The notes beneath the pieces are model-generated. The model searched no databases. It was not told the DNA's origin and was given only the letters and a program-made list of their open reading frames with translations. A stretch of DNA of 64,000 nucleotides from Gammaproteobacteria bacterium (GTDB taxonomy: Bacteria > Pseudomonadota > Gammaproteobacteria > Pseudomonadales > Azotimanducaceae): assembly GCA_002708765.1 (NCBI GenBank), contig PAPD01000021.1:6358-70357 (forward strand), in the 5' to 3' direction. Position 1 is the stretch's first letter. Each line of letters begins with the position of its first letter. Positions 53,842-60,556 of the stretch are shown one piece after another. A program made the position numbers and the translations under genes.

Positions 53842-54543
53842 TCATGCTTTTTCCTTAATTCTCATTCCAAAAATTTTGGATCCTATTCTGATCCAGGTTG
53901 CTCCTTCTCTTATTGCGGATACGAAGTCAGCACTCATCCCCATAGACAGATGCCTGCATTCCTCAAATCCGTAATTTGATCTCAGTTGGTCTCCAATTTG
54001 CTTCAATTCTCTAAAAGATAGTTCAGATTGGAGGTCTGTTTCCGATAGAGATGGAATTGCCATCAAGCCCGCCATACAGAGCCTAGGCAGGCTATTTATT
54101 TTTCGTGCTAATTTTGAAATCTCCTCGGGCATTACTCCTCTTTTTCGTTTATCTCGAGAAATATTGACTTGAATTAAAATCTTTAAATCCTCTTTGGCGT
54201 TTTCGCGTTGTTCTGACAACCTTCTAGCAACCTTTTCGCTATCAATCGAGTGAACCCAACTGAATTTATTTGCGATTTCTTTTGTCTTTTTGCTTTGAAT
54301 AGCTCCTATATAGTGCCAATTTGCGTTCGGTAACTGAGTGATTTTATCTTTGGCTTCTTGCAGGTAGCTTTCTCCGAATTCCAATTGTCCTTCCGAGTAC
54401 GCGGCTTTTATCGCGTTCATGTTTTGTGCCTTAGACACTGCTAGCAGTTTAACGGAATCCGGAGGTCGTCCTGAGGATTTGCAGGCTGTCAGAATCTCTG
54501 CTCTCAAATTCATTAGGTTCTTCTTGATCGATTTGGAGTTCAT
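53842..54543 (-). CDS. yggS: PLP homeostasis protein (YggS/PROSC family)
   Basis: PLP-binding protein of 233 aa that buffers pyridoxal phosphate. The lysine sits in LLAVSKAQNM, with FGESYLQEAKDKI, HYIGAIQSKK and HSIDSEKVA following, and SMGMSADFVSAIREGATWIRIGSKIFG at the end. In Pseudomonas pilT and pilU lie just beyond this gene; here ruvX follows at once. Confidence 0.94.
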   Translation of the reverse strand: MNSKSIKKNLMNLRAEILTACKSSGRPPDSVKLLAVSKAQNMNAIKAAYSEGQLEFGESYLQEAKDKITQLPNANWHYIGAIQSKKTKEIANKFSWVHSIDSEKVARRLSEQRENAKEDLKILIQVNISRDKRKRGVMPEEISKLARKINSLPRLCMAGLMAIPSLSETDLQSELSFRELKQIGDQLRSNYGFEECRHLSMGMSADFVSAIREGATWIRIGSKIFGMRIKEKA

Positions 54544-54550
54544 CTGACAA

Positions 54551-54934
54551 TTACTTTCGAAGCCAGGATTCTAATATCAACTTCGCTGCAAAAGAATCGA
54601 TGTCGCTTGCGTTTTGGCCATCACGAGCTTCAAAGGTGGTCAAGCGCTCGTCAAACATTTCGCTGGTTATCTTGTATCGATCTGATATTCTGCGGGAAAA
54701 TTTCTCTGCTCTCTTGCTCATCTGGCTGACGCTTCCGTCCATGTTTATAGGCAATCCCACCACAAAGCTTAAAGGTTCCCACTCGAAGACCAATTTGTCT
54801 AATTCTGTCCACCGAGGAATACCATTATTTGCTATTACAGTTCCAACAGGAGTAGCTGTCTTAGTGATTACCTGTCCTACTGAGATCCCGATTTTCGTTG
54901 TTCCGAAGTCGAAGCCCATAATTACAGAAGTCAT
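54551..54934 (-). CDS. ruvX: Putative Holliday-junction resolvase / pre-16S rRNA nuclease (YqgF)
   Basis: RNase H-fold protein of 127 aa. IMGFDFGTTKIGISVGQ is the N-terminal Asp-bearing strand, FVVGLPINMDGSVSQMSKRAEKF the core, and DERLTTFEARD the acidic motif. In E. coli YqgF takes part in maturing the 5' end of 16S rRNA; a RuvC-like role was also suggested. Its ATG directly follows the yqgE stop. Confidence 0.93.
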   Translation of the reverse strand: MTSVIMGFDFGTTKIGISVGQVITKTATPVGTVIANNGIPRWTELDKLVFEWEPLSFVVGLPINMDGSVSQMSKRAEKFSRRISDRYKITSEMFDERLTTFEARDGQNASDIDSFAAKLILESWLRK

Positions 54935-55481: not shown

Positions 55482-56252
55482 CTATCCTGTTTCCCAATAA
55501 GAATTTTTTCGGAATTGCCATATCCGGATTATTTCTAATAAATCAATTTCTTTTTCCATTTCCTTTGGAAAAGGGGCAAAGGGAGCTGCCATTTGAACGA
55601 TCGAGAGAGCTGCCCTATCGAGCACCTCATGACCTGAAGTCTCTACGATTCTAACCTCCTTCAAATTACCGTTCGGTAGAATTGAAGCTAGCAAGAGAAG
55701 AGAACCATACAGTTTTTTTCTTTTTGCCTCCTGCGGATAATTGAGATTGCCAATTTTTTCGACTTTTCTTTCCCAGGAATTTAGATACAGCCGAGTGATC
55801 GTTCCAATTTGTGGATCCCTATCTATAGTTCGGATCCTTTCCCCCTGGTTCGAATAGAAGCTATCCTGTTCAGATTTGATTTGTTCGGTAAGCAAGTATT
55901 CTAGATCGTTTGATATCTTTTCTGATAACTTTTGTTCTTTTTTTACCGTATGAGTATCTCCAGAGTCACTAACTTCTTTGGGGGATAACTTTCTTGAGGG
56001 GTCCTTTTCGCTAATGATAGTTGCAGAGGGGTTTGCCTGGCTCTGATCGTCATAACTACCAATCTCCATACTGAGATTTCCGTCCCGTTCTCTTGAGTCG
56101 AGAGGAGACACTTCAATCGAAAATTGAGGAGAAAGTTTTTCGTGTTCGGCTTTCGGGAAATAAAATAACACCAAATAGTGTGCTACTAGCGATACAAGAA
56201 ATGCCAGTCCTAGTCGAACCTGAGGAATGAATGTGAGATGGGTGCTATTCAA
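55482..56252 (-). CDS. TonB-family C-terminal domain protein
   Basis: A 256-aa envelope protein: one N-terminal helix (LGLAFLVSLVAHYLVLFYF), an acidic and Ser/Lys-rich linker of about 120 residues without the Pro-rich repeats of TonB, then a TonB C-terminal fold (YPQEAKRKKLYGSLLLLASI, VRIVETSGHEVLDRAALSIVQMAAPFAPFP). The position between gshB and yqgE is that of P. aeruginosa tonB3, linked to type IV pili and twitching. No ExbBD is adjacent. Its role here is open given the loss of pil genes. Confidence 0.85.
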   Translation of the reverse strand: MNSTHLTFIPQVRLGLAFLVSLVAHYLVLFYFPKAEHEKLSPQFSIEVSPLDSRERDGNLSMEIGSYDDQSQANPSATIISEKDPSRKLSPKEVSDSGDTHTVKKEQKLSEKISNDLEYLLTEQIKSEQDSFYSNQGERIRTIDRDPQIGTITRLYLNSWERKVEKIGNLNYPQEAKRKKLYGSLLLLASILPNGNLKEVRIVETSGHEVLDRAALSIVQMAAPFAPFPKEMEKEIDLLEIIRIWQFRKNSYWETG

Positions 56253-56269: not shown

Positions 56270-57223
56270 TTAATCCGCAAGGATTTCTTTTTCGATGAAT
56301 TTCATATAGTCGCTACCTATATCTATGCTAAACCATTCGTTGAGCTCAATAATGCAGGTAGGACAGGTAACATTAATTTCTGTTAAAAAATCTCCTATCA
56401 CATCTATGCCCACAAAAAATAGGCCCTTCTCGCGCAAAGCATCACCTAATTCGTTACAAATAAAAAAGTCTCGTTCAGTTAAATCTCGTCCTACCCCTTT
56501 ACCTCCGGCTGCAAGATTACCCCTTGTTTCTCCGGAAGAAGGAACTCTGGCGAGACCATAAGGAATGGGGGTTCCGTTTATTAGTATTATTCTAGTATCG
56601 CCTTTGGCTATTTCGGGAATAAATTCTTGTCCAATTATTTGAACTCGACCGTCTTCTGTTAAATTCTCTAGGATGACTGACAGATTATGTTCTTGAGGTT
56701 TTGCTCGAAAAATAGATTGGCCACCCATACCATCAAGTGGTTTGAAAACAACGTCCTGGTGTTTCTCGTAAAACGATCGAAGGTGCTTCTGATTGCTGCT
56801 GACAATGTGGGGAGGGCAGCAGTTTGGGAATTCAAGAGCGAAGAGTTTTTCATTACAATCTCTGATACTTCTAGGCCTATTTAATACTGGGGTACCAAGC
56901 TTTTCGGCGAATTCAAGAAGGTATGTCGAATAAATATAATCCATATTAAAGGGAGGGTCTTTCCGCATTAAAATAGCATCAAATTCCATGGAGGAAGAAA
57001 TTCTAGAGTCACTGATGGAATACCATTCGGATTTTTTTTCACGCAAATTTACCAAATCATTTGAAATCCATAACGTCCCATTTTCCAGATAGAGATCTTT
57101 TTGTGTAAAAATAGAAATTTCCCACCCTCTATTTTGTGCGGCGTTCATAATCGCCAGGGTAGAATCCTTCGCTGGATTTATAGTTTTGGGTGGGTCCATG
57201 AGTACCCCCAATGAATAGCTCAA
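56270..57223 (-). CDS. gshB: Glutathione synthetase
   Basis: ATP-grasp ligase of 317 aa joining gamma-glutamylcysteine and glycine. Typical segments are LGVLMDPPKTINPAKDSTLAIM, LNRPRSIRDCNEKL, VFKPLDGMGGQSIF, NLAAGGKGVGRDLTERD and GIDVIGDFLTEINVTCPTCIIEL. It is divergent from the PilG-like gene, exactly the gshB/pilG junction known from Pseudomonas. Glutathione supply fits the GFA and MAPEG genes elsewhere in the window, although this is only a pathway connection. Confidence 0.96.
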   Translation of the reverse strand: MSYSLGVLMDPPKTINPAKDSTLAIMNAAQNRGWEISIFTQKDLYLENGTLWISNDLVNLREKKSEWYSISDSRISSSMEFDAILMRKDPPFNMDYIYSTYLLEFAEKLGTPVLNRPRSIRDCNEKLFALEFPNCCPPHIVSSNQKHLRSFYEKHQDVVFKPLDGMGGQSIFRAKPQEHNLSVILENLTEDGRVQIIGQEFIPEIAKGDTRIILINGTPIPYGLARVPSSGETRGNLAAGGKGVGRDLTERDFFICNELGDALREKGLFFVGIDVIGDFLTEINVTCPTCIIELNEWFSIDIGSDYMKFIEKEILAD

Positions 57224-57385: not shown

Positions 57386-57766
57386 ATGGAGAACTTAATG
57401 GAAAATGAGTTGGTTGGGAGAAAAATACTGGTTGTTGATGATTCTCCTAGCATTAGACGGACCGCGAAAATTTTTCTCGAGGAATTCGGAGCTGATGTTG
57501 CTGCCGCGAGCACAAGTTTCGAAGCCTTAGCGATAATCGCTGATTTTTGTCCCGATTCAATGCTTATAGATGAATCTATGCCTCGATTCAATGCTTATGA
57601 TTTTTCAGCGCTGTTAGGTCGAATTAACAGATATTCGAAGATAAGACTTATCAGCCTCTCTTCGAGGTCGGATCGAACTGATCCGGCAAAGATCAAGAAA
57701 AATGGTTTTTGGAGCAGTGTTTCCAAGCCTTTCACCAAAGAAGACTTATACTTGGTAATACACTAA
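57386..57766 (+). CDS. pilG: Single-domain response regulator (PilG-like)
   Basis: A receiver-only protein of about 126 aa. The acidic pair and phosphorylation pocket read ILVVDDSPSIRRTAKIFLEEFG, the phosphoacceptor is the Asp in MLIDESMPRF, and the closing Lys is in SKPFTKEDL. The match to PilG is by context (next to gshB) and by the VVDDSPSIRRTA start. The track begins at a TTG at 57374; ATG 57386 has AGGAAA upstream. No output domain or kinase is present, so its signal source would be elsewhere. PilH, PilI and ChpA are missing. Confidence 0.8.
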   Translation: MENLMENELVGRKILVVDDSPSIRRTAKIFLEEFGADVAAASTSFEALAIIADFCPDSMLIDESMPRFNAYDFSALLGRINRYSKIRLISLSSRSDRTDPAKIKKNGFWSSVSKPFTKEDLYLVIH

Positions 57767-58128
57767 TTTCTAGATTGGTGGAGCATATCTAGAGCCTTAT
57801 TTTAAAAACTATTATTTTGTTCACCACTAAATTAAAGAACGACAATTAAGAAAACCCTTTTAATTGAATATTGATACACGATATTCACCAGTAATTTTTT
57901 TTTAAAATACCAAAACCTGTTCGCGAAATTCCGATTTGAATATTTTAGAAGATATTCATTTAATAGGAGATTTTTCTGCTTCTATTACATTTATGCCTCG
58001 TGACGCTTTATTATTTTATTTAGAATCAGATAATTAGCTGCCATAAGATGAAGTTTCGTTAGAGGGCCCTCAATTTGACTGATGATGTAATAACTAGCAA
58101 AGCAGGAGGTTATTTTCCGGAGGTCCTA
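57767..58128. other. AT-rich spacer where pilH/pilI are expected
   Basis: About 360 bases of AT-rich sequence. It holds only very short frames, such as a 33-codon TTG-started one ending at a TAG near 58037 that resembles nothing I know, and a second set of ribosome-binding-like G-rich runs before the PilJ-like gene. I see no recognisable remains of pilH or pilI. Confidence 0.5.
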
Positions 58129-59484
58129 ATGTTGGCAGGCCAATTGTTACTGTTGTTGACATTGCTTACGTATTTTGTGGTTCATTTAAAGGAAAGAGCA
58201 ATCGATAATGCAATTACACTCGTAGCTGAGTCGGGGACACTATCTATACTTAGCCCGGATAAGGGAAATAATTACAAAGACATTCAATTTACTGAATTCC
58301 AAAAAGCGGAAATTAATACTGCGATCGAATTTTTTTCGGGAAATCTTACCACCTCGGTTCTAGTGAATTTCTGGCAGATCCCATCGAGTTTAATCCTGAG
58401 GGTGCATGAGAGAGGAGAAGCTCTGATTTCTTCTATGTCGTTAGCTAAAAATTGGCTAAAGGATATGGAATCATCGAATTACGATAATGCGAATATTGAA
58501 ATTGACCAACAATTGATCTATCAGGAACTTAACAGTCTCGTGAAGTATTTGATAATCAAGAATATCTCTCCAAATCAAATCGTTGCGATGCAGAGACAAA
58601 GCCTGCTATTATCAAAATTAGTTAACGTTATGTTTTATATAGAAAAAAATGGGTCTAACCGAGAACTCAGCGCTAGAATTGTAAGCCTGATAGCAGAGTT
58701 TCAGTCGGTCTTAGAAGGGTTTAAGTTAGGGAATAAGAGTGTACTTATCTCGCGAATTAAAGAGCCTGGCGCTTTTGAGCGCCTAATAAAAATAGAAGGC
58801 TTATTTGATTCGTTTAAAAAGAGAGCTCTGAATCTCATCAAAGACGATAGTATTTACAGCGAGACTTCGGAGTTACTTCAGGCAGTTAATACTTCAGCAG
58901 AAACACTTAACAAGGCTTCAGCGAGACTCTTGTCAAGAGCAAAGAAAGTTATTCCAGAATTATCTTCTCTGACAACCAGTAATATTCTTCTTGTTATAGT
59001 GGTAGAAGTGTTTTTTTTGACGTTTTTGTCCTGTTTTTTGTTCATTAGAAAAGTCAGAACCCGACTTTCTAAAGAAGAAATACTCCCTTTTTCCATTGAC
59101 TTAAGTGGTCCGCATGATGAGATATTTAACCCTGGGGATAAGGTCGCTCAATCTTCTTCAGATGAACCTGAGATTTTATTCGAGCGGCTGGAAGAGCTAT
59201 TTTTTGAGCATCTGGATTCTATAGATTCGATAATTGAAGCTCAGGAAAAAGATAGCAGTCTGCTAGAAAAGAAATTAGAGAGCTTGTGTGGATTTCTGAG
59301 TTTCTTGGATCGCGAAGATGATATCCGGGCGGTTAGAGATATTTTTAATCTCGTTAAAGTTTCTAATGAGAGTCAACAAGGATCCCTTTCTGCTACTCTG
59401 ATTCTTGAAATTAGAGATATTCAAAGTACTCTTAGATTAGTCAATGTTAAAGATGATCTCTCTAACCAGAGTTTGTCTGGTTAA
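58129..59484 (+). CDS. PilJ-like two-helix sensor lacking the MCP signalling domain
   Basis: About 451 aa from the ATG preceded by CCGGAGG; a TTG at 58075 would add 18 residues. Helix 1 (LLLLLTLLTYFVVHL) leads into a roughly 270-residue extracytoplasmic region with helical repeats like PilJ's sensor pair (for example QRQSLLLSKLVNVMFYIEKNG ... SETSELLQAVNTSAETLNKAS). Helix 2 (ILLVIVVEVFFLTFLSCFLF) is followed by an acidic 140-residue tail. The HAMP region and the conserved MCP hairpin tip are absent; PilJ is normally about 680 aa. Membership is inferred from architecture and its place after pilG and before rsmE. Confidence 0.65.
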   Translation: MLAGQLLLLLTLLTYFVVHLKERAIDNAITLVAESGTLSILSPDKGNNYKDIQFTEFQKAEINTAIEFFSGNLTTSVLVNFWQIPSSLILRVHERGEALISSMSLAKNWLKDMESSNYDNANIEIDQQLIYQELNSLVKYLIIKNISPNQIVAMQRQSLLLSKLVNVMFYIEKNGSNRELSARIVSLIAEFQSVLEGFKLGNKSVLISRIKEPGAFERLIKIEGLFDSFKKRALNLIKDDSIYSETSELLQAVNTSAETLNKASARLLSRAKKVIPELSSLTTSNILLVIVVEVFFLTFLSCFLFIRKVRTRLSKEEILPFSIDLSGPHDEIFNPGDKVAQSSSDEPEILFERLEELFFEHLDSIDSIIEAQEKDSSLLEKKLESLCGFLSFLDREDDIRAVRDIFNLVKVSNESQQGSLSATLILEIRDIQSTLRLVNVKDDLSNQSLSG

Positions 59485-59839: not shown

Positions 59840-60556
59840 TCAAAATTCTCCGGCTGCGTTGTATAACATTGAAATAGCTACTATTGGCGCCGTCTCAGCT
59901 CTAAGAATGCGATCTCCGAATTTAACTGGAATAGCCCCCTCTCTAATGCTCAAGTCTAATTCGCTTTGACTAAAACCTCCTTCCGGCCCTATCAGTAAAT
60001 ATACTGAACTATTTTCGGTGAGAGTGGCCTCGAGTTTTTTACCAGTTTGGATAGCTATGAATGCTTGCTCCTTTGATCTTTTGAACCAGTTTTCCATAGA
60101 AATTGGTTCGTTAATAATTGGAATTAAGTTGAGTCCGCTTTGTTCGCAGGCAAAGATAGCCAGTTTTTGCCAATGTTGTTTTTTTTTTGCAATCAGTTTT
60201 TTTGGAACCGAACAAAAATCGCTAAATATAGGAGTGATTTCCGAGACCCCCAGTTCCGTGCATTTGGTTATCGCGCTATTCATTGCTTCTCTCTTTAGAA
60301 CACACATACCCAGCTTTATCTTAATCCTAGGCGTTTTTGTGCTCTGAGAGATATCAATAATTTTTATCTTTGTTTTCTGTGCGCAGGTCTCGTCTATTTT
60401 TCCCAAAAATTCGGGTCCGGTGCCATTGAATAAGGTAACTAAGTCATCTCTTTTTTTTCTAAGCACTTTTGCAAGATGGTGGTGTTGTTGATTCTCTAGC
60501 AGAATGGTTTGTCCTACCCCTATCTTAGAGTTGATATAAAACCTCGGTATTCTCAA
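59840..60556 (-). CDS. rsmE: 16S rRNA (uracil1498-N3)-methyltransferase RsmE
   Basis: SPOUT-fold methyltransferase of 238 aa acting on U1498 of 16S rRNA. It has HHHLAKVLRKKRDD near the N-terminus, CTELGVSEITPIFSDFC in the middle, and YLLIGPEGGFSQSELD with FGDRILRAETAPIVA, the knotted SAM-binding end. metK lies upstream on the same strand with a 146-base gap that includes a hairpin. Confidence 0.95.
   Translation of the reverse strand: MRIPRFYINSKIGVGQTILLENQQHHHLAKVLRKKRDDLVTLFNGTGPEFLGKIDETCAQKTKIKIIDISQSTKTPRIKIKLGMCVLKREAMNSAITKCTELGVSEITPIFSDFCSVPKKLIAKKKQHWQKLAIFACEQSGLNLIPIINEPISMENWFKRSKEQAFIAIQTGKKLEATLTENSSVYLLIGPEGGFSQSELDLSIREGAIPVKFGDRILRAETAPIVAISMLYNAAGEF

Follow-up and report, generated by a model that had tools for sequence, protein, structure and literature searches.

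Are the two genes that occupy the Pil-Chp slot of a marine gammaproteobacterium decaying leftovers of a chemosensory locus, or do they form a system that is still in use? The question arises from a window of 64,000 nucleotides (the whole stretch of DNA analyzed here) on a 122-kb contig of the host assembly, which comprises 2.65 Mb and is 93.6% complete. Our best reading is that the two genes encode a reduced, lineage-specific PilJ-PilG pair, which was repurposed in a lineage that lost its type IV pili.

Two genes in the Pil-Chp slot

The left flank of the slot is the conserved marker gshB (positions 56270–57223 of the window, minus strand; Pfam GSH-S_N and GSH-S_ATP), and its end is marked by rsmE (59840–60556, minus strand; Pfam Methyltrans_RNA), which has the same place in the genomes G052 and G137. 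Just two genes lie in between, both on the plus strand: a PilG-type single-domain receiver of 126 amino acids (57386–57766; Response_reg, E 8.6e-16) and a PilJ-derived membrane sensor of 451 amino acids without an MCP signalling domain (58129–59484), for which the best start is the ATG at 58129 with a GGAGG at 58119–58123 just upstream. The two are separated by a non-coding gap of 362 bp (57767–58128), which is the place of pilH and pilI in relatives, as seen in the intact order of G052. The initial annotation had described a reduced Pil-Chp locus in which gshB and rsmE flank only a PilG-like receiver and a sensor with open reading frames, and this description holds. A promoter and terminator scan gave no more matches than were obtained in shuffles. 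A TonB-C domain protein is encoded at 55482–56252, between a yqgE-like gene and gshB, and has the same position in G137, G165, G024, and G052. No description of such a reduced PilG-PilJ pair was found in the open-access literature.

Loss of chemosensory and pilus genes

The host shares with the Pil-Chp system of P. aeruginosa (PilGHIJK-ChpABC) the slot, the PilG-type receiver, and the periplasmic and transmembrane half of PilJ, but it has no PilH, PilI, or ChpA, no MCP tip, and no pilus to steer, and its sensor ends in a new tail. In agreement with the annotated absence of PilH, PilI, and ChpA from the slot, tblastn searches of the gaps revealed no remnants of pilH, pilI, chpA, chpC, or pilT. 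No CheW-domain protein was detected in the host genome (93.6% complete), nor in that of G137; hence neither the kinase ChpA nor the CheW adaptors PilI and ChpC of a Pil-Chp system were found. An intact pil/chp cluster elsewhere in the genome, which would have made the two genes unrelated paralogues, thus did not turn up. PilK has to be struck from the genes that were thought to be lost: the intact same-genus genome G052 also has no PilK at this locus, and because pilJ adjoins chpA directly there, PilK lies outside the reduction.

The pilT/pilU slot is likewise empty, as had been noted initially, with yggS (53842–54543) and ruvX (54551–54934) being only 7 bp apart (54544–54550); G165 and G024 carry pilT in exactly this position. 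Neither PilB nor PilM was found in the host assembly, and no PilT/PilU-type ATPase exceeded the threshold, so that the type IV pilus motors which a Pil-Chp system controls were not found, and the suggested search of the same genome for chpA, pilI, and pilT came back empty. While scattered genes may fall in gaps of a 93.6% complete assembly, the pilT and Pil-Chp slots each lie on uninterrupted sequence, from which these genes are absent. The genes of the two GspE-type ATPases of the host share operons with those for GspF, pseudopilins, and further components of type II secretion, to which they belong. One of them, on contig C56, falls below the GspE cut-off, yet GspE is a better match for it than PilB, and it has neighbors of the general secretion type. 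The host has two type II secretion loci, on contigs C56 and C57, and the N-terminus of the C56 GspE contains a match to the MshE-like c-di-GMP-binding motif just below the family cut-off.

Three states of the locus were found within the genus. Pil-Chp (pilGHIJ-chpA) and the pilus motor genes pilT/pilU are both present in G052, G072, G089, and G118, the slot order in G052 being gshB, pilG, pilH, pilI, pilJ, chpA, chpC, and rsmE, with pilT/pilU upstream. G165 and G024 have kept pilT and pilM and lost the whole Pil-Chp locus; rsmE directly follows gshB in G165, and in G024 a metF-like gene follows gshB and no match to rsmE was found. In the third state the pilus genes are gone and the PilG-PilJ remnant is kept, as in the host and probably in G137 (71% complete). 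Contig breaks at or near the locus occur in three related drafts, within the sensor in G137, rsmE in G129, and gshB in G106; the state of the locus is not readable in the latter two, whose contigs end in these genes.

A PilG-type receiver

The receiver is 37% identical to PilG of the same genus, compared to 29–30% for PilH and 26% for the ChpA receiver. It retains the acidic pair D18/D19, the phosphoacceptor D62, and K114, and it occupies the gshB-adjacent slot, flanked like PilG. By these measures the receiver is a descendant of PilG, as the initial annotation had proposed. It has lost the Gly that follows the MPxxD motif as well as the aromatic residue typical of the switch, the receiver of G137 has lost the conserved Ser/Thr position, and in the tree the receiver sits on a long branch. 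PilG is near identical among the four intact same-genus genomes, so that the receiver discussed here has been freed from most of its former constraints.

A PilJ-type input half

The sensor had no match in Pfam, including the MCP signal domain, which agrees with the proposed loss of the MCP tip; accordingly, the cytoplasmic signalling hairpin that binds CheW and CheA was not found. Neither NCBIfam nor Pfam gave a significant match to the sensor or its tail, and the profile PF13675 had no match anywhere in the host genome. While these profiles remained silent, the kinship to PilJ that had been suggested emerged from other comparisons. A phmmer search with the sensor retrieved the PilJ periplasmic structures 7zjr/8wdf from P. 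aeruginosa (E 7e-4), and a family-wide search matched mostly full-length PilJ frames of about 660–690 amino acids, with same-genus genomes at the top. The sensor aligned end to end with 23 PilJ rows across the whole periplasmic domain and both transmembrane helices, and the top PDB match in a fold search with the sensor model was again PilJ (7zjr, E 5e-5). The 7zjr/8wdf structures thus share fold and sequence kinship with the input domain of the sensor, although the identity in the structural alignment is only about 16–17%.

According to hydropathy, alignment, and fold match, TM1, a complete PilJ-type periplasmic helical domain, and TM2 extend over 58129–59043 (plus strand). The sensor had been characterized as a two-helix protein; it does have two transmembrane helices, but these enclose a periplasmic domain that comprises roughly 265 residues. 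Of PilJ, the protein retains the amino-terminal half, and a new tail stands in place of the MCP half.

The tail of the sensor

The tail (59050–59481, plus strand) comprises 144 residues with a net charge of −14, confirming its description as new and acidic. It was found in two of 207 genomes of the family, the host and G137, which belong to the same genus. Among 392 genomes sampled from the order, none yielded a PilJ with the tail in a search of limited sensitivity that did not include G137; the PilJ matches in this sample had frames near full length, apart from two short frames close to contig starts. Searches of viral contigs and a viral fold library found no match.

Structure prediction yielded a helical bundle with helices at tail residues 28–33, 40–63, 70–85, 89–107, 115–128, and 133–143, and a pLDDT of mostly 77–92 from residue 41 to 140. 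The first natural match of this model in Foldseek was the CheA P1 domain 1tqg (TM 0.68 by target), and further matches with an Hpt fold were 3kyj (CheA3 P1 bound to CheY6), ZmHP2, and HptB of P. aeruginosa. The structural check thus produced a bundle resembling Hpt domains, with a putative Hpt-like core at about 59131–59478, but no match passed an E-value of 0.001 (best 0.32), and designed four-helix bundles had ranks similar to those of the Hpt domains. Helical bundles readily match in fold searches.

At the sequence level, a profile pooled from 65 Hpt domains of ChpA was scored against a set of 469 tiles. The G137 tail scored above all unrelated tiles and is in register with the profile up to the HTLKG position; the window's own tail ranked 47th of 469 and does not stand out. 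With hhalign, canonical ChpA Hpt was the sole class for which the tail gave a signal beyond shuffles, and neither the cytoplasmic half of PilJ, whole ChpA, nor the ChpA N-terminus gave anything beyond them. Where Hpt domains carry the phosphorylatable His (HxxKG motif), E and T are found in the two tails, and the G137 tail contains no His at all, so phosphotransfer of the ordinary kind via this position is excluded. While the predicted bundle has a topology similar to that of the CheA P1 and Hpt domains 1tqg and 3kyj, these carry the phosphotransfer His that the tail does not have, and the sequence similarity is marginal. The model is suggestive of a histidine-less Hpt-like fold, which is plausible, but not proven.

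One possible origin of the tail, which is compatible with our preferred reading, is a translated remnant of ChpA; a single in-frame deletion would have removed the MCP half of pilJ together with the beginning of chpA and thereby fused the two. pilJ adjoins chpA in intact relatives, and the first tail helices and the first canonical Hpt domain of ChpA align in register, above 100 of 100 column shuffles. With an hhalign probability of about 2%, however, the sequence similarity does not suffice to decide on ancestry, and no intermediate was among the 207 family and 392 order genomes searched; we consider this origin rather unlikely.

Conservation of the pair in a second species

G137 (isolate ERR599043_bin.68, contig CAJWLI010000192.1; 71% complete) is a distant relative and represents a second species. 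Its gene order is that of the host, with gshB, the PilG-like gene, the PilJ-like gene, rsmE, and metK, with the sensor gene divided between two contigs that overlap exactly by 55 bases. No close relative was found. Amino acid identity between host and G137 is 41% for the receiver, 34% for the periplasmic part, and 29% for the tail, compared to 70% for gshB and 53% for rsmE. Third codon positions differ by 63–68%, more than first and second positions, and are saturated. The substitutions are far more conservative than in shuffled controls (BLOSUM scores of 157–261 versus null maxima of at most 1).

The rapid divergence, with receiver identities of 33–41% for a protein that is near identical in the intact genomes, and the lost receiver motif residues could be taken as signs of a functionless Pil-Chp relic caught before its frames were lost. 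This reading is already disfavored and very improbable, because the frames are intact in both species despite the divergence at third positions, the substitutions are conservative, and a new tail common to both species is hard to explain by decay. Without selection, frames this long would presumably have filled with stops at such divergence. The intact frames in G137, despite saturated third positions, indicate that the pair is old in this lineage, maintained under selection rather than decaying, and probably still used, in line with the initial remark on the long intact frames of the two survivors.

Possible mode of action

In P. aeruginosa, both ChpA and FimL recruit PilG. FimL, whose N-terminus is homologous to that of ChpA, binds PilG as well as the polar hub FimV (PMC10519157). 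The cyclase CyaB is activated by PilG, which also positions PilB (PMC12632253). The host has retained FimV with its core and C-terminal family domains, encoded between asd-like and truA-like genes; in G137 (71% complete), no true FimV was detected. Based on the recruitment of PilG by FimL and ChpA and on the retained FimV, we propose the tail as a candidate replacement docking surface.

According to this proposal, a Pil-Chp remnant would have been repurposed in a lineage that lost type IV pili and all CheW-type array components. The PilJ sensor retains the periplasmic domain for signal input along with the two membrane helices, and its HAMP/MCP half has been replaced by a cytoplasmic domain with a putative Hpt-like fold lacking the phosphorylatable His, possibly derived from a neighboring ChpA Hpt unit. 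This domain may dock the PilG-like receiver directly at the membrane in place of ChpA or FimL. A periplasmic signal would then alter the location or availability of the receiver with no dedicated kinase, and FimV is a candidate downstream partner. By analogy to FimL, the tail would serve as a surface that holds PilG and not as a phosphotransfer site; FimL is a separate protein, however, whereas the tail is fused to the receptor. We infer both the docking and the output of the pair, and we hold the proposal as a whole only tentatively, with somewhat less than even confidence.

The same reduced locus could also be explained if an unlinked histidine kinase phosphorylates the receiver and the tail serves oligomerization or effector binding, in which case the two proteins need not touch. 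The acidic pair, phosphoacceptor, and Lys kept by the receiver would fit this alternative, as would the weak sequence resemblance of the tail to Hpt domains and the gap between the two genes, but both genes were retained together in two divergent genomes after the rest of the locus had been lost. We regard it as a realistic alternative that is nonetheless doubtful. Returning to the docking proposal, it is unlikely, though conceivable, that the pair constitutes a kinase-less two-protein switch in which chemoreceptor input and a histidine-less Hpt-like platform docking a PilG-type receiver lead to a non-pilus output.

If the repurposing is true, the locus would illustrate how selection may preserve what is left of a chemosensory array after all but a sensor and a receiver have been lost. 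The pair would then be a natural system for separating PilJ input and PilG output from pili. The reverse loss also occurs in the same genus, in G165 and G024, which keep pilus genes and have lost the Pil-Chp locus.
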